From: a virus | DNA: 34,765 nucleotides | Strand: one strand, 5' to 3' | IMG/VR virus record: IMGVR_UViG_3300028738_000734 | Location: 1-34,765 of that record | In this document: positions 13,835-34,500 of the stretch, piece by piece | Layout of the letters: the number at the start of each line of letters is the position of its first letter | Position numbering within the stretch: position 1 is the first letter of the stretch | Program-made: the position numbers and the translations under genes | The notes under the pieces: model-generated | Database searches by the model: none | The model's input: only the letters and a program-made list of their open reading frames with translations | What the model was told of the DNA's origin: nothing

Positions 13835-13873
13835 AAACCAGTTGTCCGAATGGATCGGGCAACTGGTTTTTTT
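13835..13873 (+). terminator. Rho-independent terminator of radC-like gene
   Basis: AAACCAGTTG pairs with CAACTGGTTT, extended inside by TCCGA/TCGGG, with a following run of T. Its T-tract touches the phage promoter motif at 13873. Confidence 0.85.
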
Positions 13874-13908
13874 GTCCTTTCGCCTCTAATCCCCATCACA
13901 TAGATTTG
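13873..13908 (+). promoter_or_regulatory. Putative phage promoter P1
   Basis: TGTCC (13873-13877, within TGTCCTTTCGCC) is followed, counting 26 bases from its TCC, by TAGATTTG (13901-13908), a perfect TAnnTTTG -7 element. The same layout recurs at four other unit starts. The first gene starts 14 bases after the -7 box. GATTTGTTT/AAACAAATC forms a hairpin over the likely start of transcription. Confidence 0.7.
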
Positions 13909-13922
13909 TTTAAAACAAATCC

Positions 13923-14213
13923 ATGACACCAATGAAAATCGAATACATCCGGCGAAACCTGGTACTTAAACAGTACGAGGCGAAGGAAACACCGGAAGGA
14001 AAACAAACCGTCTTTTCCATCAAGTTTGTCAAAAAGGACGGTGAACTTATTTTTGTACCCATGGCAGTAGCAGCAGGATTGAAAATGAACATGAAGGAAA
14101 ACCGTATGCGAGGCATCCTTCCTGTGGATTCAACCGGAACAGCAAGCGGCCATGTCACCCCGGTACATATTGATGGTATTATCATGTGGAATGGTTCTAA
14201 AGTCAGAATGTAA
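13923..14213 (+). CDS. Small phage protein of unknown function (96 residues)
   Basis: This is the first gene of the structural module, directly behind P1. The 96-residue product is rich in beta structure (IEYIRRNLVLKQYEAKE; QTVFSIKFVKKDGELIFV) and ends HVTPVHIDGIIMWNGSKVRM. I do not recognise a family. Its stop codon overlaps the portal-like gene's start in TAATG, so the two are translationally coupled and it probably belongs to the head-assembly group. An ATG three codons downstream is an alternative start. Confidence 0.7.
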   Translation: MTPMKIEYIRRNLVLKQYEAKETPEGKQTVFSIKFVKKDGELIFVPMAVAAGLKMNMKENRMRGILPVDSTGTASGHVTPVHIDGIIMWNGSKVRM

Positions 14214-15577
14214 TGGCAGATATCCTATTCAATAAACAGGGCGTTCCCTTGCTTGCTTCCGGAAGAAGTTACCTGGGCGCTACAACCGGTGTTCCGGCTG
14301 ACAGACCAAAATCAACCGCTTCGCCAAAACCTGCTAAATCCGATCTGGATAAAACTACTGTCGGCAACTACGAAATTGCCAGTTGGGGACCAAACAACGA
14401 TTGGCCAAAGAAAGCGGATGACATCATCAGTAAGGTTGGAACGCTCAATACGGGCTTACGTTTTACCCGGAATTTCACCCTGGGTCAGGGCATTTTCCCC
14501 TGCACCATTACCGGCTACGATAACTCCGGAAATGAAATCATGACTGCTCCCAAAGATCAATCATTGGCCATCTTTGCCAATAGCCGGATGGTGCGCCGTT
14601 TCATGGAAAAGGCAATCCGCGATTACCTGAAACTGGGTATCGGCTTTGTCCAGTTCCTGTTCAATGAAGATGGAAGCCAGATTGTTGGGGTAAACACCAT
14701 CAATTCAAAATACTGTAGACTGACCGTTGCCAATAAAGATGGGATCATTGAAAAATGTATTGTTTCCGGAAGGTGGCCCGATAATCCCGGAGAAGGCGAA
14801 TACACCGTTTATGATGTTCTGGATGAATATGATCCTTTCGCCGACCTTCAGCGCCGTCGTTGGGCCAATCAAACCAAAGGGAAATCGCTTGTCATGTGCA
14901 TCCGTGATTCATGGAGCAACAACGAGTATTACTCTTCTCCACTTTGGTACGCTTCCTATCTGGCCGGATGGATCGATATTGCAGGCATGGTACCGGCATT
15001 TCTAAAAAAAGCCTATACCAATCAGATTACCTGGAAATGGCACATCCAGATTCCGTATGCTTTTTGGGATCGTCAGTTCCCTGCCAATCAGTTTGCAACC
15101 ATTGATCTCCGGAAAGCAGCCATCGAACAATACATGGACGATGTGGAAAATAACCTCTGCGGAGTAGATAATGCCGATAAGCCAATCTTTACGTTTTTCG
15201 AGATTAATCCGATGAACGGCAAGGCAGAAGAAAAGTGGGTGATCGAACCATTGAACAACAAGCTCAACAACGAACAGAACCTGGTGACTTCCGCTGCAGC
15301 GAATTCTGAGATCATGTTTGCCATCATGGTAAATCCCAATGTCATGGGTGCCGGGATGCCCGGAGGTGCTTATGCCGGAAATTCAGGAGGAAGTAACATC
15401 CGTGAAGCCTATCTGATCAACGTGGCAAATGCCTGGCTCGACCGCCAGACCATCCTTGATCCGATTGAAGTCTATCATCGCTACAATGGTGGCGACGAAA
15501 ATATTGAATGGCGTTTCAGAAACACCGTTCTAACTACCCTTGATACTGGTGCCGGAACAACAAAAACCCTATCGTAA
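14213..15577 (+). CDS. Portal-like phage protein
   Basis: The 454-residue product has the size and layout of a portal protein: a disordered Pro/Lys-rich start, then NYEIASWGPNNDWPKKADDI, LNTGLRFTRNFTLGQGIF, a central alpha/beta core and a late helical and loop part (NSEIMFAIMVNPNVMGAG; SNIREAYLINVANAWLDRQ). The pattern of repeated calls to 'natively bound' short helices ending in EWRFRNTVLTTLDTG is what I associate with portals of Bacteroidota siphoviruses and myoviruses. Portals form the dodecameric DNA channel at one capsid vertex. Overlaps of one base at both ends show tight coupling. No terminase gene lies upstream, which is unusual. Confidence 0.55.
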   Translation: MADILFNKQGVPLLASGRSYLGATTGVPADRPKSTASPKPAKSDLDKTTVGNYEIASWGPNNDWPKKADDIISKVGTLNTGLRFTRNFTLGQGIFPCTITGYDNSGNEIMTAPKDQSLAIFANSRMVRRFMEKAIRDYLKLGIGFVQFLFNEDGSQIVGVNTINSKYCRLTVANKDGIIEKCIVSGRWPDNPGEGEYTVYDVLDEYDPFADLQRRRWANQTKGKSLVMCIRDSWSNNEYYSSPLWYASYLAGWIDIAGMVPAFLKKAYTNQITWKWHIQIPYAFWDRQFPANQFATIDLRKAAIEQYMDDVENNLCGVDNADKPIFTFFEINPMNGKAEEKWVIEPLNNKLNNEQNLVTSAAANSEIMFAIMVNPNVMGAGMPGGAYAGNSGGSNIREAYLINVANAWLDRQTILDPIEVYHRYNGGDENIEWRFRNTVLTTLDTGAGTTKTLS

Positions 15578-17929: not shown

Positions 17930-17932
17930 AAA

Positions 17933-18481: not shown

Positions 18482-18816
18482 GTGGCTTTTTTAGAATGAA
18501 TTGTTCCATTATTTTTTCTTTCAAAATTTTTAGCTAAATCATAATAATTCAACTTGTATATTTTCTTTATCATAGGAATAACTTACCTTTAAAAAAATAT
18601 AAATATATATTGCCAAATGGTAAGAATAGTCATAAGAAATAGCGTGCTACCCTTACTTTTAGTAAGGGTATGTATAAGTTGTATACAAGCTTAGAAAAAG
18701 ACCTTAATGTCAAAATAGAATGATTCACAGATGAAAATCCAAGACTTATTGATTACAATTTTTAAAGAAAAAAATCATCATGATTTTTGATTAATAAATC
18801 ACTAAAAATTGAAATC
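18482..18816. other. AT-rich intergenic stretch with hairpin and palindrome
   Basis: No gene is visible. A perfect 9-bp hairpin, TACCCTTAC/GTAAGGGTA around TTTTA, lies at 18648-18670, followed by the palindrome TTGTATACAA at 18679-18688. There is no strong T-tract after the hairpin, so a regulatory site or recombination site is at least as likely as a terminator. The sharp shift to AT-rich sequence begins here. Confidence 0.5.
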
Positions 18817-19890
18817 ATGAAAAGTAGAAATTTGTTTTTTTTAATTAATGGGCCGATTTGGATAGCAATTGTATTGTATACTTTTTCAATTGGCTTTTAT
18901 CGGTATTATAATAGAAACCTTGACCCCTTGACCCCTTTGGCTATTAAGTTCGGCATAACAAATTCTTTCGTAATTATTAGTTGGCTATTAGCAAATTTTT
19001 ACCTCTTTTATTCATATCTAGTACCTCAATATTTTTTTAATAATAGGAAGCCACATTTTTGGATTTTGACAATATTCCATGTTCTTATTTTGGGCCCAAC
19101 ATTAATTTCCTTTATACAATACATAGCCGGATTATTTTTAGGTATTGCAGTGATATTTCCTTTCAATTTCGAAATGATTAATCTTAGAGAATTTCTCTTA
19201 CATTGGCTTTATTGGCTAGTTCTTACTTTTATATGTGGGTTTTTAGGATTTATATTCAAACTTGCCTTTATTTCATTTAAAAATGAACAATTAAAAAAAG
19301 AATTACAAATCAGAAATCATTTGAATGAAATCAGGGTGATGAAAGCAAAACTAAATCCACATTTTCTTTTCAACACGATAAACAATATCGATACCTTAAT
19401 ACAATCAAGACCAACAATTGCTTCAGCAGCATTATCTAAATTGTCTGATATACTCAGATATATGGTTTATGAAACGGAAAATGAACTAATTTCGATTTAT
19501 ACCGAAATTGAAAATCTTGAGAAATATATTGACTTAGAAAAATTGAGGCTAATAAACCCAGGTTCTGTTTCATTTGCAAGTACAATAAAACGTGATTTTG
19601 CTGTACCTCCATTAATTTTTTTTCCATTTGTTGAGAATAGTTTTAAGCATAGTAATTTAAATGCTGCAAATCAAAAGCTGCAAATATCTATAAGGGAAGA
19701 TAATAACTCACTTATTTTTGAATGCCTTAATACTATTAATGAAAAAACGCAGGACTCGAATTTCAAAGGAGTAGGTATGGAACTAGCAAAGAAGAGATTA
19801 GATTTACTTTATCCAAATCGCCACAAACTATCAATAAAAAAAGAAAATAATGAATTTCATGTATCGCTTAAAATCGATTTAAATTTATGA
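18817..19890 (+). CDS. LytS-type sensor histidine kinase
   Basis: The 357-residue protein has four predicted membrane segments (about 6-26, 47-66, 80-112 and 125-153), a short coiled linker (FKNEQLKKELQIRNHLNEIR) and a LytS/AlgZ-type kinase domain. Phospho-acceptor H182 lies in LNPHFLFNTINNID, the ATP-binding N-box in FVENSFKHS (272-280) and the G-box in KGVGMELAKKRL. There is no obvious extracellular sensor domain, so the membrane segments themselves probably sense the signal. The start is the ATG at 18817; the TTG at 18787 is less likely. It overlaps the response regulator gene by 4 bases. Base composition is clearly more AT-rich than the phage genes on both sides, indicating separate origin. 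Confidence 0.9.
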   Translation: MKSRNLFFLINGPIWIAIVLYTFSIGFYRYYNRNLDPLTPLAIKFGITNSFVIISWLLANFYLFYSYLVPQYFFNNRKPHFWILTIFHVLILGPTLISFIQYIAGLFLGIAVIFPFNFEMINLREFLLHWLYWLVLTFICGFLGFIFKLAFISFKNEQLKKELQIRNHLNEIRVMKAKLNPHFLFNTINNIDTLIQSRPTIASAALSKLSDILRYMVYETENELISIYTEIENLEKYIDLEKLRLINPGSVSFASTIKRDFAVPPLIFFPFVENSFKHSNLNAANQKLQISIREDNNSLIFECLNTINEKTQDSNFKGVGMELAKKRLDLLYPNRHKLSIKKENNEFHVSLKIDLNL

Positions 19891-20570
19891 TTAACTGCAT
19901 TATAATAGATGATGAGCCGTTGGCAATAGAAAAATTGGAGAATTACATTTCAAAATTGCCTGAACTGACTCTATTAAAAACATTTAACTCTGGGATTTCA
20001 GCAATTAGTTTTTTTAAAACGAATTCTGTTGACCTTCTTTTCTTAGATATTGAAATGAAAGAATTGACAGGTATTCAGTTACTTGAATCTGTCAGTATAA
20101 ATTCTAAAGTTGTTATCACATCAGCATATAAAGAATATGCAATCAAAGGATTTGAATTAAAAGTAAGTGATTATTTATTAAAGCCCATAACTTTTGAAAG
20201 ATTCGTAAAAGCATACGATAAAGTTGTTGAAGAATTAAATCAAATAAATGGAACCCCTAATCACAAAAGAATTTTCGTTAAAACAGAATATCGGCTTGAA
20301 GGTATTGAAACATCTAATATACTTTATATTGAGGGAATGGGTGATTACCGTAGAATTGTAACAACCCAGAATAAAATTATGACCTTACAGTCGTTCGCTG
20401 AGTTGGCTAACCTATTGCCCATGAAATTATTTTGTCGTGTGCATAAATCATTCATTGTAGCGGTTGATAAAGTCGAAAAAATTGAAAGAAATAGGATAAC
20501 CATTAAAGAAAAATTGATTCCAATAAGTGAATTATATAGTAATATTTTTTTTGATAAAATTAATAAATGA
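19887..20570 (+). CDS. LytTR-type response regulator
   Basis: This 227-residue protein has a receiver domain (acidic pair DDE at 8-10, phospho-acceptor D54 in LLFLDIEM, S79, K99 in YLLKP) and a LytTR DNA-binding domain from about residue 125 (RIFVKTEYRLEGIETSNILY; FCRVHKSFIVAVDKVEKIER). It is the cognate partner of the preceding kinase, as the ATGA overlap shows. Such pairs commonly control a neighbouring gene; here the nearest is the TlpA-like lipoprotein, but an attC-like structured region lies between, so control of it is not assured. LytTR operators (paired short repeats) could not be identified with confidence. Confidence 0.9.
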   Translation: MINCIIIDDEPLAIEKLENYISKLPELTLLKTFNSGISAISFFKTNSVDLLFLDIEMKELTGIQLLESVSINSKVVITSAYKEYAIKGFELKVSDYLLKPITFERFVKAYDKVVEELNQINGTPNHKRIFVKTEYRLEGIETSNILYIEGMGDYRRIVTTQNKIMTLQSFAELANLLPMKLFCRVHKSFIVAVDKVEKIERNRITIKEKLIPISELYSNIFFDKINK

Positions 20571-20591
20571 ATAAAAGCCAGTGTACAACAA

Positions 20592-20714
20592 AGTGTAGCG
20601 GGCAATAAGGGTTCCGTGGTATTCGAGCATTCTGCCACGCTTAAATTTTGGCGTAGCTTGACAGTGACAAAGCCCGCAAACCCATACTGCCGCTACACTC
20701 AAACGTTATGCGCA
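20592..20714 (+). repeat. Structured cassette-boundary repeat (attC-like), left side of TlpA gene
   Basis: AGTGTAGCGG (20592-20601) pairs perfectly with CCGCTACACT (20690-20699) across about 90 bases that hold further inverted repeats (CGTGG/CCACG; GCGGGC/GCCCGC). GTTATGCGCA (20705-20714) follows, and its exact inverse lies just after the gene at 21963. The layout recalls integron attC sites, although GTTATGC deviates from the GTTRRRY consensus. Confidence 0.5.
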
Positions 20715-22116: not shown

Positions 22117-22152
22117 TGTCCTTTCACCACGCATTTCCATACTTTAGCTTTG
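22117..22152 (+). promoter_or_regulatory. Putative phage promoter P2
   Basis: TGTCC (22117-22121, within TGTCCTTTCACC) and TAGCTTTG (22145-22152) have the same spacing as P1. The tape measure ATG is 24 bases downstream. TGATTCAT/ATGAATCA forms a hairpin that covers the start-codon region. Confidence 0.7.
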
Positions 22153-22176: not shown

Positions 22177-25100
22177 ATGGCATCATCTTACACCCGACGC
22201 ATCAACCTTTATATCAATGGCAAGGAAGTCACTAACGACATTGCCAGCATCCGTGCAGAGATGAACCGGCTGGTCAATGCCCAGTCACGCATGGAAATCG
22301 GTTCCCGGGAATACATCGCCCAGATGCAAAAAATCAAATCGCTAAAGGCAATTCTGGATCAGCACCGGCAGGATATTTCCAACGTCGAAAAAGGCTGGAC
22401 CATGCAAAAGCTGGGTGATACGTTCAACCGCTACCAGGCACTAGCGATGGGGGTCATTGCCACGGTTACCGGCTTGGTATTGGCTTTCCGGCAGATCGTG
22501 GGTACGTTCAACGATTTTGAGGAGCGTCTGGATAACCTTTCCGCCTTGACCGGTTTGGCCGGTGATGATCTGCAGTGGTTGGGAGAAAAAGCAAAAGACC
22601 TTTCTACATCAACTCTGGCAAGTGGGATCCGGGTAACCCAAAGCGCTCAGGAAATTGTGGATGCTTTCACCAAAACCGGATCGGCCCGCCCTGAACTTCT
22701 CAAGAATAAAGAGGCATTGGTGGCCGTGACAGAGGAAGCCATCATACTTTCCAATGCTGCAAAAATCAAACTTCAACCGGCCATCGAAGGGTTGACCATG
22801 GTCATGAACCAGTACAATGTTTCGGCCAGCGAAGCCCGCCGGATCATTAATGTCCTGGGTGCAGGATCAAAAGCTGGTGCCGGAGAAATACCTTACCTGA
22901 CCGTTGGCTTTGAAAAAGCCGGTACCACCGCCAAACTTGCCGGATTATCCATCGAAACCCTTACCGCTACGCTCGAAACCCTTGCACCCCGCTTCTCACA
23001 ACCTGAAATTGCCGGTCGCGGACTTCGTGGAATGTTACTCCGTCTTCAGGTTGGAGCTGATGATACCAACCCTGCCATCGTTGGTATGGGTACTGCACTG
23101 GAAAACCTGGGCAAAAAAATGCTTTCACCAAAAGAAATGCTCGAAACCTTTGGCCTGGAAAATATTGCCGTAGCCCAAACCCTGATCACCAACGTTCAGG
23201 AATTGAAGAACTACGAAAAAGCAGTAACCGGTACCAACGTAGCCATCCAGCAGGCAGCGATCAATACCGATAACAACAACTCCAAACTGGCTCAGGCCAG
23301 AAACCGACTCAATGTAATGAGCATCGAACTGGGTGAAAAACTGGCTCCTGCATTGCAAATAAGCACAAGTGGTTTGTCTTATTTCGTGAAAGGCATGAGC
23401 GTTATGATTGACTTTTTCAGTCAGAATAAGACCGTAATTCTAACCCTGATTTATTCGCTTACAGCTTATACCATGGCAACCAAACTGGCCGCGATGTGGG
23501 AAGCCCGACTCAATAAGGAAAAACTGATCAACATTGTGATCGGCAAATTACAGGTATTGGCTTATAATGCGCAGTTTGCTGCTATTGCCCTTTATAATGC
23601 AGGGGTGGCACTTCTCTCCGGAAACCTTGCCGTTGCCACCATCCAGTTCCGTGCCTTCTCAGCTGCCATGGCAGCCAATCCAATCGGATTGATTGTTGGT
23701 CTGATCGTTGCCGCCGGTACCGCCTTGTATTACTATTCAGGACAAATGACAGCAGCACAAAAAGCACAGAAGGTACTGAATGATGTGAATCTGGAGGCTC
23801 TGAAAAATATCGTGGAAGAAAAGATCAGATTAGGCTCATTGCTTGACATTGCCCGAAATGAAAAATTATCCAAAGAAGATCGCCTGAATGCCTTGAATCA
23901 GTTGATTGCCATTTCCCCCAAATATCTTGGAAGTCTAACCCTTGAAACAATCAATACAGAAGGCGCCACCAGTGCCGTGAAAGAATATATTGATACCCTT
24001 CTTCAAAAAGCCAAAGTTCAGGCAGCTGGTGAAAAACTGATCGAAATCGAAAAAGAGTTATTGGATCTGACTGCCGGCAATGGCGCTGACGTTTCATTCT
24101 GGCAAGGAGCAGGAAACGCCATTCTTTCCTTTGGAATTGCGGCTGTTTTGGCTGGCCGCAATGCTGTTACTGCCGTTTCCAACATGACAGAGAAACAAAA
24201 CGAACTCAACGCGCAGAAAGAGAAACTTTTAAAAATTACCCAAAAGCAGCTGATTGAGGATGCTAAAAATCCGGGGGCCGTTGATGGAACCGATGTGACC
24301 CGCGATCTGGTCCGGGAACAGGAACTTTTACTTGAACAGGCCAATAAGATGCCCCGAAACACTGAAGCAGAAATTACCGCCCGAAATAAGAATATCGAGT
24401 CCATCCAGAAGGAAATTGACCGGCTCAATCAGCTTGGAACGGCCAAAGAAGGAAGTTCTGACGGTGCGGGTGGAGCAAATAGTGATGCAGTCAAAAAGCG
24501 CATTGCTGCTGCTGAAGCTGCACACAATGCGGAAATGGCCGCCATCAAAAAACGTAATCTCGAAGGATTAAGTTCCGATGATCAGTATAAGGGAGAACTG
24601 CTTACTGAGGAAATCAAATTCCTTGATGATAAGATGAAGATCTACAAAAAGGGAAGTAAAGAGTATGAACAGGCTTATGCTGAATCCTTAGGTAAACAAG
24701 TGGAAGCCGAAAAAACGGTCAAAGATCTGTTGGAAAAGGCTCAAAAAGAGTTGGCTAATGCAAAAATTGATAACCTTCAGGAAGGAATCGATAAACAAAA
24801 AGCGATTGAGGAAAACCGCTGGGCAGACGAGTTGGCCGGATTAAAGAAACAATTACTGGATAAAAAAGACCTTTCTGATCAGGAACTTGCCCTGAATGAC
24901 ACGATCAATAAAACCATCGAAGAGAAAGAGGCTGCCCATCAAAAGGCGATGAAGGATCTTTCTTCTGCAGCGGAAATGCAGAAATTGATGGATGCAGCAC
25001 TTATTGGTGAGGCCAAATCTGCAACAGACCAGGAATATTTTGCAGCGCAGCAAGACCTGGCAAGGGCAAACTATGAGCAGGAGCTGATCGATGCGCAAGG

Positions 25101-25875
25101 TAACGCAGCCAAAATAGCAACCGCTGAGCGTAGTCTATCCGATAAACTCATTCAGATCAAACTCGATGAACTTTCAAAACGGCAGGAAATAGGTGATGCT
25201 GTGTTCTCTGCTGCTAATTCGGTGTTTGGAGGTCTGGCTGAACTAGCTGGAAAAGAAACGGCACTGGGAAAAGCCTTGTTTCTTTTTCAGCAAGCCGCCG
25301 CCATTGGTCAGGTGGTCTTTAATACCGCCATTGCCAATGCCAAAGCGGTAGCCCAATTCCCATTAACTCTGGGTATGCCATGGGTAGCCATCAATACGGC
25401 TAGTGCTGTTGGAAGCATTGCTTCCATTGTAGCTCAGTCAATCGCCAATTTCTCACAGCCTAAAGGTTTTCTTAAGGGTGGATATACCGGACCTGGAAAG
25501 AAGGATGAACCTGCGGGGGTCGTCCATAAAGGGGAATATGTCATCCCTGCCGCTATGCTACGCAATCCGCAAATCGCGATGATGGTGGCCGGTTTGGAAC
25601 AAATGCGAAATGGACGTTACAGTATTTCTCAGGAAGCCTACAAAACAACCACAAGAAAAAACTTCTCAACTGGCAATAACGCTGCATCTAAACAATACAA
25701 GGAAACGGCAAAATTCCAATTACAATCAAATTCAGGTTCCATTTCTGATGCAACAGCACAAAAATTCACCAACGCAGTTGACAGACTATTGAATTGGGAT
25801 CCTTCAATCAGTATCGAGCTGCTTGAACGAAAACAAAACCTTTACAACAAAATTACAAAGGGTGGATTAAAGTGA
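22177..25875 (+). CDS. Phage tail tape measure protein
   Basis: At 1232 residues this is the longest gene, as expected. It starts with a coiled region (about 1-75), then the PhageMin_Tail-type core (TKTGSARPELLKNKEALVAV; GEIPYLTVGFEKAGTTAKLA; ALENLGKKMLSPKEMLETFG), hydrophobic segments around 470-520 (AANPIGLIVGLIVAAGTALY), long charged coiled coils (about 690-990) and the typical C-terminal GKKDEPAGVVHKGEYVIPAAM. Tape measures set tail length and occupy the tail lumen; by the usual 0.15 nm per residue rule the tail would be roughly 185 nm, within siphovirus or myovirus range. Promoter P2 directly precedes it, separating it from the AT-rich insertion upstream. Confidence 0.93.
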   Translation: MASSYTRRINLYINGKEVTNDIASIRAEMNRLVNAQSRMEIGSREYIAQMQKIKSLKAILDQHRQDISNVEKGWTMQKLGDTFNRYQALAMGVIATVTGLVLAFRQIVGTFNDFEERLDNLSALTGLAGDDLQWLGEKAKDLSTSTLASGIRVTQSAQEIVDAFTKTGSARPELLKNKEALVAVTEEAIILSNAAKIKLQPAIEGLTMVMNQYNVSASEARRIINVLGAGSKAGAGEIPYLTVGFEKAGTTAKLAGLSIETLTATLETLAPRFSQPEIAGRGLRGMLLRLQVGADDTNPAIVGMGTALENLGKKMLSPKEMLETFGLENIAVAQTLITNVQELKNYEKAVTGTNVAIQQAAINTDNNNSKLAQARNRLNVMSIELGEKLAPALQISTSGLSYFVKGMSVMIDFFSQNKTVILTLIYSLTAYTMATKLAAMWEARLNKEKLINIVIGKLQVLAYNAQFAAIALYNAGVALLSGNLAVATIQFRAFSAAMAANPIGLIVGLIVAAGTALYYYSGQMTAAQKAQKVLNDVNLEALKNIVEEKIRLGSLLDIARNEKLSKEDRLNALNQLIAISPKYLGSLTLETINTEGATSAVKEYIDTLLQKAKVQAAGEKLIEIEKELLDLTAGNGADVSFWQGAGNAILSFGIAAVLAGRNAVTAVSNMTEKQNELNAQKEKLLKITQKQLIEDAKNPGAVDGTDVTRDLVREQELLLEQANKMPRNTEAEITARNKNIESIQKEIDRLNQLGTAKEGSSDGAGGANSDAVKKRIAAAEAAHNAEMAAIKKRNLEGLSSDDQYKGELLTEEIKFLDDKMKIYKKGSKEYEQAYAESLGKQVEAEKTVKDLLEKAQKELANAKIDNLQEGIDKQKAIEENRWADELAGLKKQLLDKKDLSDQELALNDTINKTIEEKEAAHQKAMKDLSSAAEMQKLMDAALIGEAKSATDQEYFAAQQDLARANYEQELIDAQGNAAKIATAERSLSDKLIQIKLDELSKRQEIGDAVFSAANSVFGGLAELAGKETALGKALFLFQQAAAIGQVVFNTAIANAKAVAQFPLTLGMPWVAINTASAVGSIASIVAQSIANFSQPKGFLKGGYTGPGKKDEPAGVVHKGEYVIPAAMLRNPQIAMMVAGLEQMRNGRYSISQEAYKTTTRKNFSTGNNAASKQYKETAKFQLQSNSGSISDATAQKFTNAVDRLLNWDPSISIELLERKQNLYNKITKGGLK

Positions 25876-25882: not shown

Positions 25883-25918
25883 TGTCCTTTAGTCGCCCCT
25901 ACATAAACCATATGTTTG
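25883..25918 (+). promoter_or_regulatory. Putative phage promoter P3
   Basis: TGTCC (25883-25887, within TTTTTTGTCCTTT) and TATGTTTG (25911-25918) have the same spacing. The -7 box sits inside an AACCA/TGGTT hairpin. The next ATG is 26 bases downstream. Confidence 0.7.
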
Positions 25919-25944: not shown

Positions 25945-27108
25945 ATGAGTGTTACCCATACTATCACAGGCTCAAATTTTTTAACAGGTAACCCGATTCA
26001 AATAACAATTACAGCTTCAGATACTCGTACAAGCCATAAGCTGGCGCTGAAAGTGACTTGCAAATCAATGGGAAATATTGAATTGCAAGGTTCACCGTAT
26101 ATCGAAGAAATTGCACCTAATAACCTGGTATCTGTTTTCGAAATTTCAGGTCTGCTTGATTTTCCAGCCGAATACAAATTCAGTTATCCCCCTGTTGGAG
26201 CAGTAACAGAAAACGATGTAACTCATAAAATATCATTCGACATTGGTGAAGTTTGGACAGATGATCAAGGCGAACGTCAGGAAGAATGGACAACACCGGC
26301 AGAAAATACATTCAAAGTAATTAAAGGCAGATTACGGGCTCATGAATTGGCTTTGCTTAATGATCAAAACAAAACTTTCGATTCAGAATTCGTTCAAGGT
26401 GGAAAGTTTCTTACACATCAACCCAATATGCAGCGGGTGTCACCTTCGCATATTCCGATGTTATGGTATCATGGCCGATGGTTTGGTTCCCATTCCATAT
26501 CAATCCACCTGAAAATTGCTTTCATAGACGGAGAACCGGTAACACTTAATCAGGATCATACTATTTGGGATATTACAGCCCTTGTTGGTTTTGTGTTTTC
26601 ACCGCGCCATTGGGACTATTATGTTGGAATGGATTCCAATATTGCCAGTTATGAATTTTGGGTATCGGATTCCGGTGGCGATATTTCGGAGCATCGTACT
26701 TACATAGTCGATCATAAAAACTATGAACAGTCATTTACATTTTTCTATACCAATCCACTCTCAGGTATCGATATGTTATGGCTAACGGGTGAATATACAC
26801 AGGGATTAAAATCTGAGTCTGAAACAGCATTTCGGCCAGTACCAATCGGCTCGGGCAGTAAAGTGGCAAGCATAAAAACAGTTTCAGTAATTGGCCAACG
26901 CTCATGGGAGATAAATACAGGCTTTAAAACTCGTCAGGAACTTTTGGCGATGCGTGATTTTATAGAGTCACGTGAACGCTGGATGGTCGATCCTGACAAT
27001 ACTGATTGCCTTCTTCCTGTAATGATCGAAAGTGGTGAATTTTCACTTTACGACAGTATGGAAGATCTACAAAATCTTGAACTACAAATATTGGAAGCAC
27101 ACCGATGA
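25945..27108 (+). CDS. Phage tail/baseplate protein, 387 residues
   Basis: This beta-rich protein follows the tape measure and starts the P3 unit. The first 110 residues look like an immunoglobulin-like or tail-tip beta domain (THTITGSNFLTGNPIQITIT). Later parts contain WYHGRWFGSHSISIHLKIAF, a TIWDITALVGFVF segment and SIKTVSVIGQRSWEINTGFK. The C-terminal stretch (LAMRDFIESRERWMVDPDN) resembles the end of distal tail proteins that describe a defined cell or residue position, but I cannot name the family. The position suggests distal tail (Dit) or baseplate. It overlaps the next gene by 4 bases. Confidence 0.6.
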   Translation: MSVTHTITGSNFLTGNPIQITITASDTRTSHKLALKVTCKSMGNIELQGSPYIEEIAPNNLVSVFEISGLLDFPAEYKFSYPPVGAVTENDVTHKISFDIGEVWTDDQGERQEEWTTPAENTFKVIKGRLRAHELALLNDQNKTFDSEFVQGGKFLTHQPNMQRVSPSHIPMLWYHGRWFGSHSISIHLKIAFIDGEPVTLNQDHTIWDITALVGFVFSPRHWDYYVGMDSNIASYEFWVSDSGGDISEHRTYIVDHKNYEQSFTFFYTNPLSGIDMLWLTGEYTQGLKSESETAFRPVPIGSGSKVASIKTVSVIGQRSWEINTGFKTRQELLAMRDFIESRERWMVDPDNTDCLLPVMIESGEFSLYDSMEDLQNLELQILEAHR

Positions 27109-28349
27109 AGGCAAGGCGCGAATTAAAAAAGATGTGGAGCGATCCACGAATGAAAGAAACTATTGATAGCCTTTGGAGAGAATATTACGGCCTTTATAAT
27201 GAAAAATATAAAGCAATACCCGAGTTTGATGAATTCGGTGACCCGGTTGATGAGTGGCTACACAATAAAATTTCAAAAGAGATTGAATATGGTCAAGCCA
27301 TCGGTCAGGATCATTTGATCGAGGGAAATCGAAGTATTGCCATTGGTCAGGGAGCGGTAACCAAATCGTTTCTGGAAACTGTTTTAGGTGCTTATGCAAC
27401 TATTCCGGAAGATCAAGACCCGTTAAAATGGATTCTTACAGACCGCTTGCTTACGTTGGGCAACGGAAAAGATAAGGAGCATCGTTCGATTGTATTTGAA
27501 ATCTTTAAATCGGGATTAACCAAGTTTTTAAATGCGGTTAAATTCGGAGAGTTTTGGCATGGTGAGAAAGATCCAGAAGGTGGAGAAATTCAGTTTGCAC
27601 AAAATAGGTTTCAGGGGTATTTTGATGAAGCCTGGCATGAATTCGCGTTTAAAGAAGTAAATACTATTACACAAATTGGTCATGGTTTTGTTGTTGGAAC
27701 TACGATTAAATTATCGGGTTCAGTTTGGGTAAAATCCAGAGCTGATACAGCCTCCAATGCCGGAACTGTTGGCATAGTCTCAGAGGTTATTGATGCTGAT
27801 CATTTCCGATACATTACCGCAGGGTTATTTCCCGGCGAATTTATTGACGGTGCCAATTACTTCCTATCAACAACAACTGCAGGATCAATATTTATTCAGA
27901 CAGACCCCGAAGTGTGGAACATTGGTAACGTCCGTGAGTTTATTGGAACAGGAACACCTGCCGGACTTGAAATTGAGATTGATCTTGGTGATGAGATCAC
28001 AGAAATGGAGTTTGACACACCAATAAATGAAGATTGGATCACTGCTGAATATCGTGATGTTGTTGCTGGCACAGCTGATAGTCACCCTCTGAACCTAAAG
28101 GCATATGCTGGATATACCATAGATTCACTTTCATTGCAGGTTGATAATGGAACATTGGTGGTAACTATTAAGATCAACGGGTTTGCAATAACTGGGCTTT
28201 CAGGAGTAACTGCAACTACATCTATAATAACAACCTTAGCAACAGCATTAAATTTAGTCTCTAAAAATGATTTGGTCACCGTTGAATGGTCAACTTCTTA
28301 TACCGGGACACCAAAGAAAATTTTTGTTGAATTGAATATGACAAGATAA
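27105..28349 (+). CDS. Phage tail fibre/spike-like protein, 414 residues
   Basis: The N-terminal 65 residues are a charged helical region. Residues about 66-105 carry a YadA-head-like pattern of short repeats (IGQDHLIEGNRSIAIGQGAV), typical of trimeric left-handed beta-rolls. A beta-rich part with WHGEKDPEGGEIQFAQNRF follows, then GHGFVVGTTIKLSGSVWVKS and a C-terminal immunoglobulin-like domain (DSLSLQVDNGTLVVTIKING; SGVTATTSIITTLATALNLV). This suggests a trimeric fibre or spike that touches the host surface. Stop and next start overlap in TAATG. Confidence 0.6.
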   Translation: MKARRELKKMWSDPRMKETIDSLWREYYGLYNEKYKAIPEFDEFGDPVDEWLHNKISKEIEYGQAIGQDHLIEGNRSIAIGQGAVTKSFLETVLGAYATIPEDQDPLKWILTDRLLTLGNGKDKEHRSIVFEIFKSGLTKFLNAVKFGEFWHGEKDPEGGEIQFAQNRFQGYFDEAWHEFAFKEVNTITQIGHGFVVGTTIKLSGSVWVKSRADTASNAGTVGIVSEVIDADHFRYITAGLFPGEFIDGANYFLSTTTAGSIFIQTDPEVWNIGNVREFIGTGTPAGLEIEIDLGDEITEMEFDTPINEDWITAEYRDVVAGTADSHPLNLKAYAGYTIDSLSLQVDNGTLVVTIKINGFAITGLSGVTATTSIITTLATALNLVSKNDLVTVEWSTSYTGTPKKIFVELNMTR

Positions 28350-29236
28350 TGGGACATAGAATTTTATACATACCGGCAATTTTGGCTGAATCAAAATATC
28401 AGACAGCAGGAATATTTGGTGGATTTATATATCGTTCTACAGATGCTGGCGCTACATGGAATCAAACAGGAATTAGTGGAAACTGGCTTGGTATAGCTGT
28501 TTGTTCATCAGGAAAATACCAAACTGCTGTTAACAATGGTGGTCGTATTTACAGGTCTGACGATTATGGCATTACATGGAGTCTTGTTAGTATTACAGGT
28601 GCATGGTATGATGTTTCAATGTCAGCATCGGGTCAATATCAAACAGCTGTGACTAATGGTGGTTTAGTGTATGTTTCATCAGATTATGGAGCAAATTGGA
28701 ATAGATCATCTTTTTCAGGATCGATTGCACATATATCTGTTTCATCTTCTGGACAGTATCAAGTTTGTGTTAGTTTGGTTAATGAGGGCAAGGTGTATGT
28801 TTCTTCAGATTATGGTGTAACATGGTCGTTGAAATATAATGGTGGAGTTAACGTAAATGGGTGTGCTGTTTCTGGCGATGGAAAGTATATGTTGGCAGTT
28901 TGGTCTTATGGAAAGAGAATTTACAGATCAACTGATTACGGCCAAACATGGAATGCTGTTGGTGGTACTGGTTATTGGAGAAGTGCGTCCATTTCAGAAG
29001 ATGGAAAACACCAGGTAGTTGGGGATATAAATGGTGTTTCAGTTATTTCTCATGATTATGGTGTGACTTGGACAAACTGCGGAGCATCTTGTGTTGCAGT
29101 TTCAATGTCTTCATCAGGAAAATTTATAACGAAGGTCAAGGATCATTCGTCAATCTATATTTCTTCTGATTATGGTGCAACATGGAAAACTGTTGGTTTT
29201 GGAGCTTATTGGTTCGATGTTAGTATATCTGATTGA
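28349..29236 (+). CDS. Seven-Asp-box beta-propeller tail protein
   Basis: The 295-residue protein is made almost wholly of seven repeats of about 40 residues, each ending in an Asp-box (SxDxGxTW type): STDAGATW at 30-37, SDDYGITW at 70, SSDYGANW at 110, SSDYGVTW at 152, STDYGQTW at 194, SHDYGVTW at 234 and SSDYGATW at 272. The paired SSGKYQTAV-type strands between them complete a probable seven-bladed propeller of the BNR/sialidase-like superfamily. No catalytic sialidase arginine triad is apparent, so binding rather than cleavage is more likely. Its place in the fibre block points to receptor binding. Internal repeats make it prone to blade-number change. Confidence 0.75.
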   Translation: MGHRILYIPAILAESKYQTAGIFGGFIYRSTDAGATWNQTGISGNWLGIAVCSSGKYQTAVNNGGRIYRSDDYGITWSLVSITGAWYDVSMSASGQYQTAVTNGGLVYVSSDYGANWNRSSFSGSIAHISVSSSGQYQVCVSLVNEGKVYVSSDYGVTWSLKYNGGVNVNGCAVSGDGKYMLAVWSYGKRIYRSTDYGQTWNAVGGTGYWRSASISEDGKHQVVGDINGVSVISHDYGVTWTNCGASCVAVSMSSSGKFITKVKDHSSIYISSDYGATWKTVGFGAYWFDVSISD

Positions 29237-29253
29237 TTTAAAATATTCATGAA

Positions 29254-29457
29254 ATGAGTAGAGCATCAAACAAAAAGATAATCGTAGTTTCAAATTCTAC
29301 AGCAGGAAAACTTGTTGAAACTACACCAAGAAATGATAAGGATTGCTTTGTTTGGGACCAAACAAAAAACTGCTATGTTCATGAACCTCGCGCTTTAGTC
29401 AACCATGATCATGAGATAGGAAACCAGGTTTTGCTTTTTGAAAATCAATTAATTTAA
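29254..29457 (+). CDS. Small phage tail-region protein, 67 residues
   Basis: This 67-residue beta-rich protein (KIIVVSNSTAGKLVETTP; DCFVWDQTKNCYVHEPRAL) lies between the propeller and the fibre genes, with 17- and 12-base gaps. It has two cysteines (DCFVWDQTKNC). It may be a fibre adaptor or chaperone; I do not recognise it. Confidence 0.55.
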   Translation: MSRASNKKIIVVSNSTAGKLVETTPRNDKDCFVWDQTKNCYVHEPRALVNHDHEIGNQVLLFENQLI

Positions 29458-29469
29458 AAATAGACAATT

Positions 29470-30117
29470 ATGAGTTTAGCAACACGTATTTCGGACTTAA
29501 CAACGAGGTTGGCAACCGAATTTAAAAGCGTTAAAAGTATTATTTCTGGAAACAATTCAGGAAGTCTTTCAGGACTAACAACGTCAGTAAAAACCTCAAT
29601 TCTTGCTGCAATCAATGAACTTCAAAGTTCTATTGCATCAAAACAGGCAAGTCTTGGATTTACGCCTGAAAATGCAGCAAACAAAGGCGCGGCAAATGGA
29701 TATGCAGGTTTAGATGCAACTGGCAAAGTTCCTGCTGCACAATTACCGTCGTACGTTGATGATGTTCTCGAATACACTAATCTTGCTGGATTCCCGGGAA
29801 CCGGAGAAACAGGCAAGATCTATGTTGCCCTTGACTCAAACTTGCAATACCGTTGGAGTGGTTCAGCTTATGTGACGATGAACTCAGCTTTGGCATTGGG
29901 TGAAACGTCAGCAACAGCATATCGTGGAGATAGGGGCAAAACGGCCTACGATCATAGCCAATTAACAACCGGAAACCCACACGGCGTAACCTTCGCACAA
30001 TTAGGTTCAAAGCCAACAACTATTGCTGGTTTTGGTATTACAGATGCCTACACCAAAACAGAACTTGGCGACCCGGAAACCAACTTTGTAACAACGTTTG
30101 ATAGCGCATTAGTATGA
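29470..30117 (+). CDS. Phage tail fibre protein, 215 residues
   Basis: The N-terminal segment (SLATRISDLTTRLATEFKSV) is a short amphipathic helix that recurs in the next gene, so it is probably the attachment anchor. Then come typical fibre motifs: a SLGFTPENAANKGAANGYAG shaft linker, LDATGKVPAAQLPSYVDDVL, FPGTGETGKIYVALDSNLQY and the GNPHGVTFAQLGSKPTTIAG segment common in phage fibres. No enzymatic domain is visible. The protein is short for a complete fibre, so it may be one segment of a multi-protein fibre. It overlaps the following gene by 4 bases. Confidence 0.75.
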   Translation: MSLATRISDLTTRLATEFKSVKSIISGNNSGSLSGLTTSVKTSILAAINELQSSIASKQASLGFTPENAANKGAANGYAGLDATGKVPAAQLPSYVDDVLEYTNLAGFPGTGETGKIYVALDSNLQYRWSGSAYVTMNSALALGETSATAYRGDRGKTAYDHSQLTTGNPHGVTFAQLGSKPTTIAGFGITDAYTKTELGDPETNFVTTFDSALV

Positions 30118-31163
30118 GTCTTGCAAGTCGGATATCAGCATTAGCCACCAGAATTGGGCAGGAAATTAAGTTAAAACAGGCTTTACTTATATCTGGAACA
30201 AATATCAAGACCGTGAACGGGAGTTCATTACTGGGTTCTGGCGATTTAGCTGTTTCAGGTGGTCAAAGTGTTAATCTGAATGGGATTATCAATTTGATCT
30301 ACAATGATGAAACTGATTCTGCTGAACACACAACAAGTACATCAGAAAGTACAGCCCGAAAAACCTACACTTTAGCTGCAAATACATACTCCAAAATAAT
30401 CATTGAATTCATTGTTCGGGCAAGGGTTGAACAATCTGCTAATACTAAAGCAGATTTTACCTGGAGAATTAAGTCAGCCGGAACTACTGTCAGAACATTT
30501 GTTCAGCGTATTATAGCAAGTTCAACCGGGGCCATGTCTGGTGATCGATTGACTGAAACATTCTCTTATATTATGAATGGTGGTCAAGTTGCCAATACTG
30601 ATATAACCATTACTGTTCAGAATTCTTTAAATAATGCTTTAACAGGTGGATTGGTTCATGCTATGCGTATTTATGGAGTTATGGATTCGACAACAATAGG
30701 CAAGGGAGATACTGGCGCGCAAGGGAAAGGAATTTCATCAACAAGCTACAATTCAAGCACAGGTGTTCTAACGATTACTTATTCGGATTCGTCAACCTAC
30801 CAAACAGGTGATCTTCGTGGAACTTTGCTTGATAACACATTTACCTATGCCAAAATATACTCTGATTTAAAGAGCAAGGCAACGGTTACAGCCAACATTG
30901 ATCTTTCGGCTAATGGGCAAGGCGAAATAACGCTTTCCGGAAATACCGCATTTGCTTTCACTGGGTATCAGTTGAATAAATCGTACTTGCTTAATATCGT
31001 AACGAATGGATATACCCCAAGTTGGGCGAATACAGCCAAACATAGAGCAGTTGAAGGCAATGCACCTTTTGGAAATTCAGGAACTTATATCGTGCTACTT
31101 ACTTGTACAAATGCCACTTCAGGTAGTGAGAAGTTATTAACCATGATAATGAAGGAGATTTAA
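30114..31163 (+). CDS. Phage tail fibre protein with collagen-like linker, 349 residues
   Basis: The N-terminus (SLASRISALATRIGQEIKL) is a diverged copy of the previous gene's anchor. It is followed by a TNIKTVNGSSLLGSGDLAVS fibre motif, a beta-sandwich-like region (about 70-185), a short GKGDTGAQGKG collagen-like link near residue 198-208 and a C-terminal beta domain (DLSANGQGEITLSGNTAFAF) that resembles tip domains of other Bacteroidota phage fibres. Two adjacent fibre genes sharing an anchor but with different distal parts suggest a compound or alternative receptor-binding apparatus. Confidence 0.75.
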   Translation: MSLASRISALATRIGQEIKLKQALLISGTNIKTVNGSSLLGSGDLAVSGGQSVNLNGIINLIYNDETDSAEHTTSTSESTARKTYTLAANTYSKIIIEFIVRARVEQSANTKADFTWRIKSAGTTVRTFVQRIIASSTGAMSGDRLTETFSYIMNGGQVANTDITITVQNSLNNALTGGLVHAMRIYGVMDSTTIGKGDTGAQGKGISSTSYNSSTGVLTITYSDSSTYQTGDLRGTLLDNTFTYAKIYSDLKSKATVTANIDLSANGQGEITLSGNTAFAFTGYQLNKSYLLNIVTNGYTPSWANTAKHRAVEGNAPFGNSGTYIVLLTCTNATSGSEKLLTMIMKEI

Positions 31164-31165
31164 CC

Positions 31166-31879
31166 GTGATACTGATGCCAGGAATAGGAGTTGTTGCAAT
31201 GTCTAAGTTCAACTTAATTATGCCAACAGTTGACATTTTAATATATCCAACAACGATGTTCAATACATTCCATCCAGTAGTTAATTCTTATGGGGGGAAT
31301 ATGCCTGGCGTTGTTGAGATAGGATTTTGTTACAAAACAGATGCTATCAATAATAATTTAGCTACGATCAATAACAATGTTGTTGCACTTGGTTATGGCA
31401 ATGGAACATTTGAAACAGATATTTTATTAGATAGTGGATGTGTTGATTTCCAAATATTTAATGGAGCATTTATGTTTAGGGCATATGCGCGTTATGGAAA
31501 TACTGTTGTGTATGGGAATCAACCTGCTCCATTTCAAGAATATGCGCCTTATGAGGGCATGATGGCTCCAACAATATCATGTGATATGAATTTGTTTGAA
31601 AATAATGTTGTTGTTTCAGCGTCATTTCATATGAATACTTATTGGGGAGAAGGTAGTAACCAGACTGACGACCACAAATGGTATCTGTATATATCTGATA
31701 GTTTAGGTAAGCAAGAAACACATGAATGCACATATTATGACACCGTTTATCCAATCGAATTTGTACCATCTGTTAGACCAACATGGGTTTCAGCATTCGT
31801 CGAATACTATGTAAATGGTCAAAGATACTATGGTGTTGGTTCTTGGTATGAGTATGTGAAACAAATTTATAGGCCTTAA
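31166..31879 (+). CDS. Phage tail-region protein, 237 residues
   Basis: This beta-rich, aromatic-rich protein (YGNGTFETDILLDSGCVDFQ; WYLYISDSLGKQETHECTYY; FVEYYVNGQRYYGVGSWYEY) is of unknown family; it could be a fibre tip or fibre-associated protein. GTG at 31166 is chosen because GAAGGAG lies 8 bases upstream; the next ATG at 31175 would place the site too far away. It starts 2 bases after the fibre stop and is 1 base from the next gene, so it belongs to the same transcript. Codon use is more AT-rich than in the connector genes, like the other fibre genes. Confidence 0.6.
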   Translation: MILMPGIGVVAMSKFNLIMPTVDILIYPTTMFNTFHPVVNSYGGNMPGVVEIGFCYKTDAINNNLATINNNVVALGYGNGTFETDILLDSGCVDFQIFNGAFMFRAYARYGNTVVYGNQPAPFQEYAPYEGMMAPTISCDMNLFENNVVVSASFHMNTYWGEGSNQTDDHKWYLYISDSLGKQETHECTYYDTVYPIEFVPSVRPTWVSAFVEYYVNGQRYYGVGSWYEYVKQIYRP

Positions 31880-31880
31880 T

Positions 31881-32375
31881 ATGAAACATTTAATCAAAGA
31901 CAATCAGATTATACAGTCAGGAATACCAAGCTATTTTACCCGCGAAAATGGTGAAGGTTTTTGGGGTGGTTATGAAAACCGTACTGATATTCATTATGAA
32001 GATGGATGGCGTGATGAAGTGATACCTGAATTTGATCCGATGGTTCAGTATTTAGGCGCTGCATTTTATGATGCCGAAAACGATGTTGTTACTTATCCTG
32101 TTTTGCAAAAGGTAATTAATGTAGAAGCTGAAAAGGCACGACTTTTAGGTGATTTGGCTAATGCCAGAAGGGAGATTGCCACTTTGGTAATGGAGGCACA
32201 GTTATCGAATGATTCTGTTCCTGAAGGCTTACAAAACCTGATGAATATGTCGCGCCAAATTAATGTTCGGGTAAAGGAAGATATTGCTTCGCTCACGGAA
32301 GTAGAGGTGATGAAGTTCAGGATCAGGACCCCGGAATATTTTCAGTTAATTGGAGCGATTAAAGCGTTTTTGTGA
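31881..32375 (+). CDS. Fibre-associated phage protein, possible assembly chaperone
   Basis: The 164-residue protein has an N-terminal beta part (KHLIKDNQIIQSGIPSYFTR; EGFWGGYENRTDIHYEDGWR) and a C-terminal coiled-coil half (VINVEAEKARLLGDLANARR through LQNLMNMSRQINVRVKEDIA). This two-part layout and position after fibre genes are like Tfa-type and other fibre assembly proteins, in which a cap domain binds the fibre tip, but sequence identity to those families is not evident. It is the last gene of the P3 unit. Confidence 0.55.
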   Translation: MKHLIKDNQIIQSGIPSYFTRENGEGFWGGYENRTDIHYEDGWRDEVIPEFDPMVQYLGAAFYDAENDVVTYPVLQKVINVEAEKARLLGDLANARREIATLVMEAQLSNDSVPEGLQNLMNMSRQINVRVKEDIASLTEVEVMKFRIRTPEYFQLIGAIKAFL

Positions 32376-32385: not shown

Positions 32386-32421
32386 TGTCCTGTGGCATGT
32401 GTATTTTCATTCGGATATTTG
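32386..32421 (+). promoter_or_regulatory. Putative phage promoter P4
   Basis: TGTCC (32386-32390) and GATATTTG (32414-32421) keep the 26-base spacing; the -7 box has one mismatch (G for T). The ATG is 20 bases downstream. It is the weakest of the five sites. Confidence 0.55.
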
Positions 32422-32441
32422 AATTGACTTAAAAAAACACG

Positions 32442-34415
32442 ATGCTTGCTTTAACCTTAAATGGCCAATTGATACCCATACCACAGGACTTCAGCATGAG
32501 ATTAACGTGGAAATCTCCTATATGTGATTTTGAGAAAATTCCTTCAAGCTATGGTCTTGGAATTTCTTTACCCATTAACGAATATACACGATCAATTTTT
32601 GGTAATCCAGAGCGATTCACAAAATATCGCTCTGGCAACGATCAAAAATTTCCCGGATTCGAAGCGCGTTTTGGTGGGGTATTGTTAATGTCTGGAACAT
32701 TAGCAATCAACAATTCAACCAAAGAAAATTATGAAGCTACCCTTATAGATCAGGTCGGAGTATTGTCCGAAAAAGAACAGGAGCGAAACATTTTAGAAAT
32801 TCCAAAATTTTCAGAAAATATTCCCTGGATAAATTCAGCAAACTACAATTCTGATGATCATCATTATTGCTGTTTTCCAATTAAAAACATTGGCTTTTTT
32901 AAAGATAAAGGAATCGTAGTAGAACGAACAGAAGATATCGCTGATCCATTAAATCCATCAAAAACAACAGCACAAAAATATGATGTTGAAATTTTATCTG
33001 TTTGTTTTTTTTCGACTACTGGTTATAAAGTCAATGCATTATCAGCCAATGGTCAAATTAGAATGGAAGGATCATCGGTAGATTTATCAATCGTGACTCA
33101 AAAAAACAACACCTATGACGATGGAAAAGTAACAGTGGTTTCACCTTTTTTCTTCTTAAATCGTATTATTATTGATACGTTAAAAGACACAGGATATCAT
33201 ATCAATAAAACATCCAACTTTCTTGACACCGATGAAAACATCAAAAATGCTTGTATATATAACAATTATGATATAACAAAAACAACATTTTCAAAAAAGA
33301 AAGAGAATTACACGTATAAGGATAACTACAAGCAAAGCTTAAATTACGCACCAGCTTCGAGAAATGGTGACGTTTATAAGGATATTGATTCTGAAGATCT
33401 ATACAGAGAAGGAAGCATTGTTGTTGGAATGGACATTTGGAAATACAACAGAAGCTATGAAAGTGAAATAAAACCAGTAAACCATCTGCCTAAAATCTCA
33501 ACCGGCGAATTAATTCTTTCAACTCAAAATCTGTTCAATGTTTGTCTTCATTTCCTGCCTAATAAAACAATAAACATCTATTCAAGAGAAGACATTTTAA
33601 AAGGAAATGCAATCGATCTGGACAAATTCTTCGTTGGTTCCTGGTCAATCGGTGAAAAGAAAAATGTCACATTAAAATTCATTTGGGAACATGATGATAA
33701 AGATCTTGTATTTGCAGAACGGTTCACCGATTTATCTGATCGCATTTCAGATTTGAAACAACCACTTGACGGCTGGGGTGATTTGCTTTTTATTCAATCA
33801 CCAAAAGAAGGCGAAATTCATTTTTTAAAACAAGAAAAGATCTTTGTGGAATTTAAATGGATATCCATTGATAAAGTTGACAAAGATACATACAGCACCA
33901 ACCCTTCAGATGTTCTTGGATGGGAAGAAATTAGTATCGGTTTCCAAAATGGATGGTTCAAATATGGACGAGAAGAAATTGAAGAAATCAAAACAACCTG
34001 GAGTACCTGTGCCGGAAAATACATGGATATTATCGTTGGAAACCGTGGAGCAACAGTTGATCAAGCTGGAAATATGGATGCATGGAAAGCTTCCAAACAA
34101 GCCTTTTCACCACGACTTTTACTTTATAGGGGACAAAATTCAGGAGCGAATGAAAACAGCGAATTTGCCCTTGATTGGGAAAAAGAAGATAAAGGAATAC
34201 TTGCAAAATATTGGAAATTATGGAATCCATTTTGGTCAAACAGACTTCCAATAACAGGAGAATTTGACCTTCCGATCAATATTCTTCGTCACCTGGTTTA
34301 CAACATCTGCAATAAATTTCGCACCCGGGAAGGCGAATTCTTAATCGAAGAAATGAGCTGTGAGGTGTTTATTGACCGCATTGGAACTACCCAGATCAAA
34401 GGTTTCAAGGTTTAG
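32442..34415 (+). CDS. Large phage tail protein, 657 residues
   Basis: The sole gene of the P4 unit encodes a 657-residue soluble protein. The N-terminal part (LALTLNGQLIPIPQDFSMRL; ISLPINEYTRSIFGNPERFT; FEARFGGVLLMSGTLAINN) looks like the start of tail-hub or tail-tip proteins that use a similar beta fold. The middle includes VVSPFFFLNRIIIDTLKDTG and HLPKISTGELILSTQNLFNV, patterns seen in baseplate hub proteins of Bacteroidota phages. It ends with RHLVYNICNKFRTREGEFLI and IDRIGTTQIKGFKV. A role as baseplate hub or tail-associated protein is likely but not proven. No lysozyme or peptidase active-site motif was seen. Confidence 0.6.
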   Translation: MLALTLNGQLIPIPQDFSMRLTWKSPICDFEKIPSSYGLGISLPINEYTRSIFGNPERFTKYRSGNDQKFPGFEARFGGVLLMSGTLAINNSTKENYEATLIDQVGVLSEKEQERNILEIPKFSENIPWINSANYNSDDHHYCCFPIKNIGFFKDKGIVVERTEDIADPLNPSKTTAQKYDVEILSVCFFSTTGYKVNALSANGQIRMEGSSVDLSIVTQKNNTYDDGKVTVVSPFFFLNRIIIDTLKDTGYHINKTSNFLDTDENIKNACIYNNYDITKTTFSKKKENYTYKDNYKQSLNYAPASRNGDVYKDIDSEDLYREGSIVVGMDIWKYNRSYESEIKPVNHLPKISTGELILSTQNLFNVCLHFLPNKTINIYSREDILKGNAIDLDKFFVGSWSIGEKKNVTLKFIWEHDDKDLVFAERFTDLSDRISDLKQPLDGWGDLLFIQSPKEGEIHFLKQEKIFVEFKWISIDKVDKDTYSTNPSDVLGWEEISIGFQNGWFKYGREEIEEIKTTWSTCAGKYMDIIVGNRGATVDQAGNMDAWKASKQAFSPRLLLYRGQNSGANENSEFALDWEKEDKGILAKYWKLWNPFWSNRLPITGEFDLPINILRHLVYNICNKFRTREGEFLIEEMSCEVFIDRIGTTQIKGFKV

Positions 34416-34464
34416 TATGGTCAAGGCTCCGCTGATCATACACCAGGCAGTACCATTCAGAACC

Positions 34465-34500
34465 TGTCCTTTTCCACAGTAGCCAAATCCGTTAGGTTTG
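34465..34500 (+). promoter_or_regulatory. Putative phage promoter P5
   Basis: TGTCC (34465-34469, within CCTGTCCTTTTCC) and TAGGTTTG (34493-34500) have the conserved spacing. GGTTT pairs with AAACC downstream. The next ATG is 16 bases after the -7 box. Confidence 0.65.

Follow-up and report, generated by a model that had tools for sequence, protein, structure and literature searches.

TGTCC boxes at a fixed distance from a host-type -7 element as late promoter candidates in Bacteroidota temperate phages

The stretch of DNA analyzed here, referred to as the window, is the viral record IMGVR_UViG_3300028738_000734 at its full length of 34,765 nucleotides (nt). It carries five sites at which a TGTCC box is followed, at a constant distance, by the 8-mer TAnnTTTG or a variant of it. 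A reading made from the sequence alone had proposed these sites as phage-specific promoters and recommended a motif search over this genome and its relatives. That search showed that the paired boxes recur, with a single spacing, in Bacteroidota phages both related to this one and distant from it. We consider it probable that the sites serve a group of temperate Bacteroidota phages as activator-dependent late promoters, with a protein family termed C7 as the most likely activator; their assignment to a late promoter class is, taken alone, well supported by the sequence comparisons. The carriers would include the phage of the window, many uncultivated prophages, and cultured Duneviridae and Helgolandviridae of the Ingeline and Leef types. 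In the open-access literature that we searched, with most subscription papers outside its scope, we found neither late promoters nor late activators described for Bacteroidota phages. The signature offers a concrete lead on the control of virion and lysis genes in temperate phages of this phylum.

Paired boxes in the window and in related phages

The five TGTCC boxes start at positions 13873, 22117, 25883, 32386, and 34465, all on the + strand, and the 8-mer starts 28 nt after the start of TGTCC in each case, giving the form TGTCC-N23-TAnnTTTG. All five sites were confirmed in the sequence, as was the distance of 26 bases from TCC to the 8-mer that had been reported for them. The 8-mers are, in site order, TAGATTTG, TAGCTTTG, TATGTTTG, GATATTTG, and TAGGTTTG, of which all except that at site 32386 match TAnnTTTG perfectly. 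They precede an ATG by 14, 24, 26, 20, and 16 nt, which agrees with the range of 14–26 nt given earlier. The exact pattern occurred four times on the + strand of the window and was found neither on the - strand nor in a reversed control, compared with 0.012 occurrences expected on one strand at N23 from first-order Markov simulation of the window. Moreover, none of 600 such simulations gave more than two matches at any fixed spacing from 10 to 40, which confirms that identical spacings are improbable by chance. With two mismatches allowed, the pattern in the window fell to chance level, so only near-exact sites are meaningful.

Relatives were collected by a portal-protein search blind to the motif, which yielded 63 IMG/VR loci (882 kb). 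Across these loci, the spacing N23 was found 42 times in the forward and once in the reverse orientation, N24 seven times and never, respectively, and every other spacing at most once in the forward orientation. The spacer sequences between the boxes are unrelated from phage to phage, which looks like selection on both boxes and on their distance. Further comparisons used a set of 39 phages, of which 24 were chosen by the motif and the other 15 comprised the window and phages found through the portal; only the portal-selected part is usable for enrichment, as counts from the motif-chosen part are not. These 39 phages contain 93 N23 sites, and among their 186 -7 boxes preceding ATGs, GTCCT stood at offset 27 in 77 cases against 0.07 expected.

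The matches listed by a scan of the collection for TGTCCTTT-N20-TAnnTTTG fell into two classes: an intergenic class, located mostly 4–30 nt before an ATG on contigs with structural genes of this phage group, and a chance-like class within coding sequence of other contigs. Whole contigs from the intergenic class carried at most five sites each, all on one strand in 22 of 24. The pattern frequency in 12 whole host genomes equaled that of the reversed control, prophage clusters excepted, such as the three sites on one contig of the Bacteroides stercorirosoris genome. Neither the motif nor a clear C7 was present in Hankyphage p00 or in the first 50 kb of crAss001, which served as negative controls. 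The description of the sites as phage-specific is thus upheld, with host chromosomes at control level and the sites preceding virion and lysis units rather than lying in early regions.

The gene order of the relatives is C7, protease, capsid, terminase, portal, tape measure, distal tail, and integrase. In the 21 phages in which both C7 and the integrase were visible, the segment from C7 to the integrase held 51 of the 52 sites (p = 1e-5), and one site was found in 195 kb of early region. The sites are therefore restricted to late units, as expected for activator-dependent phage late promoters, and the late-promoter claim is supported.

Cultured phages showed the same arrangement. Cellulophaga phage Ingeline_1 has five TGTCCTTT boxes before late units, each with five or six of the six -7 positions matched at N23. 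These boxes (TGTCCTTTT) stand ahead of the portal, neck/tape measure, gp29, and gp47 groups and in the gap between gp41, a C7 homolog, and gp42, the head protease. Six boxes precede gene starts in Polaribacter phage Leef_1 and five in phage Mea-Yong924-1, the latter each inside the word ACGCTGTCCTT. Like window site 4, these three phages often have imperfect -7 boxes. No TGTCCTTT was found before the late genes of Flavobacterium phage laban6, which instead uses TGTCACAA (ATGTCACAA) before the holin, the protease, the portal group, the tape measure, and one further unit, 28 nt upstream of -7-like boxes. A diverged C7 homolog, gp42, is encoded just upstream, and laban6 has the same architecture with a diverged box. 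The host given in the annotation of Mea-Yong924-1, Microcystis, may be wrong, as the portal, terminase, and late boxes of this phage look like those of Bacteroidota phages.

Promoter anatomy and fused hairpins

To define the anatomy of the promoters, we aligned 72 distinct sites preceding ATGs in the 39 phages and compared them with 112 other -7 sites. The consensus comprises a T-rich stretch at -46 to -43, TGTCC at -40 to -36, then T, T or A, and T at -35 to -33, a spacer nearly free of information, TAnnTTTG at -12 to -5, and A-rich sequence from the start onward. Mapped promoters of Flavobacterium johnsoniae have T-12, A-11, T-8, T-7, T-6, and G-5, with the -7 box 4–5 nt before the start (PMC6847099). 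At 10 of the 72 sites, the ATG lies exactly 4 nt past the -7 box, as in leaderless messages, and these sites together with the F. johnsoniae numbering place the box at -40 to -33. With the start predicted in this way, the box would overlap the -33 slot and reach about 4 bp beyond it upstream, and the host-type TAnnTTTG, present at four of the five window sites, would lie 4–5 nt before the start.

The host-type TTTG at -33, approximately 19–21 nt upstream of the -7 box, was found at 3 of the 72 sites compared with 21 of the 112 others, and the fixed-distance box stands in or over the -35 region instead. The sequence-only reading was therefore right that TGTCCTTT replaces the TTTG partner, but the box does not simply lie further upstream, as it overlaps the -33 slot. 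Compared with the Bacteroidota sigma-ABfr housekeeping promoter (TTTG / TAnnTTTG), the phage sites share the -7 box and its distance from the start, whereas they lack TTTG at the usual spacing and have TGTCCTTT at -40 to -33. All four perfect -7 boxes of the window have G at -10 or -9, a base nearly absent from these positions in mapped F. johnsoniae promoters (PMC6847099). Across the relatives, the excess of this G was modest (18/72 versus 14/112, p 0.045).

Hairpins had also been noted around or after the -7 box. Folding z scores there were -2.0, -3.3, -1.9, +1.4, and -2.9 at window sites 1–5, and z was below -2 at 21 of 72 TGTCC sites in the relatives versus 14 of 112 other -7 sites (Fisher p 0.007); the remark is thus partly right. 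Furthermore, a terminator-like hairpin with a T-run overlaps 33 of the 72 sites versus 22 of the 112 others (p 0.0002), with about one in shuffled sequences. Three layouts were distinguished: the T-run lies upstream of or abuts TGTCC (20 sites, including window site 13873), TGTCC lies within the hairpin (6 sites), or the -7 box lies in the 5' arm and the T-run precedes the ATG (6 sites). The hairpin of the third layout could be formed by read-through RNA only, not by RNA started at the promoter. Many of these hairpins fit intrinsic terminators fused to promoters and may act as insulators.

C7 as candidate activator and the alternatives

C7 is a family of proteins of 150–240 amino acids present in one copy per phage. 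It was detected in the 39 phages by BLAST in 20, by one pass of a profile hidden Markov model in 28, and by iteration in 34, the remainder being fragments or weak matches. The genome scan used one alignment (A1), as a second (A2) was too diverse; searching with A2 detected C7 in just 5 of 24 further phages, and an iterated profile was required. Because of self-inclusion during iteration, the E-values of distant members are inflated, and synteny is the better support. The C7 gene lies directly before the head protease in nearly all phages. No TGTCC promoter was found upstream of C7 in any phage, and many have a plain TAnnTTTG there. Profile search also identified homologs in Leef_1, Ingeline_1, laban6, and Mea-Yong924-1; in the last, C7 adjoins the primase and is distant from the head genes, a position that speaks against a structural role.

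Searches of Pfam and PHROG, and of PDB by both sequence and fold, revealed no relative of C7, and it did not match PF08765 (Mor/C family). An AlphaFold model of C7 (pLDDT, the predicted local distance difference test, 81) has helices at 117–127 and 137–146 with a long loop between them, and its sole good match was a Leef_1 protein in BFVD (E 1.7e-6). The conserved C-terminal stretch reads I..F....... E/D ..W..D/E S/T I.K...R. The form IRK[IM]W of the C-terminal helix accompanies A at -34, whereas T is seen with the commoner forms; this pairing is confounded by clade, so that the co-variation of helix and base is no more than suggestive. In several phages, among them those at loci L229, L231, and L248, the C7 gene carries at its 3' end the inverted repeat TTGTCC-N7/8-GGACAA, a possible autoregulatory operator; genome-wide, TGTCC inverted repeats were not enriched over permuted 5-mers.

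We favor C7 as the activator of the TGTCC promoters with somewhat better than even confidence. The chances appear about even that it represents a new activator family that binds one asymmetric TGTCC box, spanning -40 to -33, and stands in for the -33 sigma contact in a mode common to several lineages across the phylum and co-varying with the box (laban6 TGTCACAA; TGTCC[TC]A[CT] with IRK[IM]W). RNA polymerase with the host housekeeping sigma would read the -7 box TAnnTTTG, while TGTCC(T/C)(T/A)(T/C) at -40 to -33 would substitute for the -33 contact and serve as the binding site of a polymerase-recruiting phage activator. This activator, most likely C7, would be produced toward the end of the early phase, from a promoter that lacks TGTCC and lies immediately before the late block, and would then fire all TGTCC promoters, thereby driving the units for the head, portal, tape measure, fibres, and lysis. 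The fused terminators would block read-through from the preceding unit, so that each unit of the late block would be started separately. The comparisons themselves show the motif with its spacing, strand, placement, conservation, and phage specificity; that the sites are transcribed, that they depend on an activator, that C7 is this activator, and that the terminators function is what we infer.

Several known systems resemble this scheme. T4 middle promoters, at which a MotA box near -30 acts with AsiA in sigma appropriation, likewise keep the host -10 and replace the -35 with a phage activator box at fixed spacing; however, box, position, host, and timing (late here) differ, and no MotA-like protein was identified here. 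Mu C and P2 Ogr are small activators of temperate phages, made ahead of the late genes, each of which switches on several late units at scattered places. C7 would be similar in timing and in the scattered units, but the sites here are not palindromic and C7 has no Pfam match; the Mor/C family was absent from 20 phages. RinA/ArpU-type late regulators of Gram-positive phages are encoded just before the packaging genes, comparable to the position of C7 directly upstream of the late block, whereas C7 matches no Pfam family and hosts and boxes differ.

Several points weigh against the reading of the sites as late promoters activated by C7. The -7 boxes of Leef_1 and Mea-Yong924-1 are often poor, and 6 of the 93 sites fall within predicted open reading frames (ORFs). 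The C7 model matches no solved structure, a DNA-binding fold being suggested by the C-terminal stretch, and the presence of C7 is partly due to shared ancestry, since portal, terminase, and tape measure are also common. Finally, insertions interrupt the prophage of the window, which may no longer be active; as it lacks C7, head genes, and integrase, its five promoters may be relics.

It is unlikely that these late promoters have a phage regulator of the LuxR/GerE type as their activator in place of C7. Activation from a position overlapping the -35 is typical of LuxR-type proteins, and many of these phages carry one, including laban6 and Leef_1, in which it is annotated. However, such a protein was found in 15 of the 39 phages after iteration, compared with 34 for C7, and was rejected as the universal regulator; its gene opens the early region, next to the repressor, as a cro/cII-type gene would, whereas C7 adjoins the late block. 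Reading of TGTCC by a host factor or host alternative sigma exploited by the phages is improbable. The -7 box is the host's own, but outside prophages the spaced motif is no more frequent in host chromosomes than its reversed control, and the box tracks the phage lineage (TTT, [TC]A[CT], laban6 TGTCACAA) and not obviously the host.

The sequence-only reading had left open activator-dependent or altered-sigma promoters; the former is supported, and we give a phage-encoded sigma with new -35 specificity very little credence. Although TGTCCTTT is located where sigma region 4 would bind, no sigma-70 region 2 was found in 20 phages, region 4 profiles matched LuxR-type proteins only, and the -7 box remains of the host-sigma type. 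It is just as improbable that the box is a terminator, packaging, or replication signal beside ordinary promoters, as suggested by the 33 sites overlapping terminator-like hairpins, since 39 of 72 lack such a hairpin, the spacing of 23 (24) nt is fixed whatever the spacer sequence, and the sites lie a few nt before ATGs.

As late promoters activated by C7, the sites would have several uses. TGTCC-N23-TAnnTTTG could serve as a one-line marker of late unit starts in uncultivated prophages from which strand, start site, and leaderless messages can also be read. The signature narrows late control to one candidate gene for tests in cultured phages, and an inducible phage promoter/activator pair would serve gene expression in Bacteroides and Flavobacterium.

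Window features and the state of the prophage

Table 1. Promoter elements and late units in the window
Feature	Coordinates	Strand	Remarks
Terminator-like hairpin, 15-bp stem, T-run running into promoter 1 TGTCC	13835..13873	+	z = -8
Promoter 1 TGTCCTTT box, -40 to -33	13873..13880	+	
Promoter 1 -7 box TAGATTTG	13901..13908	+	
Unit 1 first gene, 96-aa (amino acid) protein	13923..14213	+	Portal gene next; homologs in 13/38 other phages
Portal protein	14213..15577	+	Weak PHROG portal match; relatives annotated portal
Promoter 2 TGTCCTTT box	22117..22124	+	
Promoter 2 -7 box TAGCTTTG	22145..22152	+	
Tape measure protein, unit 2	22177..25875	+	PF10145 and PHROG tape measure matches
Promoter 3 TGTCCTTT box	25883..25890	+	
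Promoter 3 -7 box TATGTTTG	25911..25918	+	
Unit 3, distal tail / fibre gene group	25945..32375	+	ORFs, homologs, BNR repeats
Promoter 4 box TGTCCTGT	32386..32393	+	
Promoter 4 degenerate -7 box GATATTTG	32414..32421	+	Such boxes tolerated in cultured relatives
Unit 4, 657-aa late protein	32442..34415	+	Conserved in relatives
Promoter 5 TGTCCTTT box	34465..34472	+	
Promoter 5 -7 box TAGGTTTG	34493..34500	+	Gene ATG 34517, truncated by contig end

C7, head genes, and a phage integrase are all absent from the window record. The left part of the window has phage genes ordered as in the relatives and interrupted by inserted elements. Those at 690–2386, 6333–6680, and 13310–13828 are collinear with two relatives (G015 and G002), which indicates that the prophage extends further left than the promoter region. 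Overall, the window is a degraded prophage.

Insertions of about 4 and 6 kb break this left part. They contain recombinases as well as an ABC transporter-associated protein, a transposase fragment, a Phd-like antitoxin, and a HipA-like protein. Three tyrosine recombinase genes in a row on the - strand (2389–5717), in the "recombinase in trio" layout, split phage genes that are adjacent to each other in the relatives. Genes for a histidine kinase, a LytTR response regulator, and a thioredoxin-like lipoprotein (18787–21958) separate a tail gene from the tape measure promoter, at a place where the relatives have different cargo. Diverged direct repeats, 71–82% identical, lie beside phage genes at 1682–1811 / 13121–13249 and 817–872 / 1875–1930.

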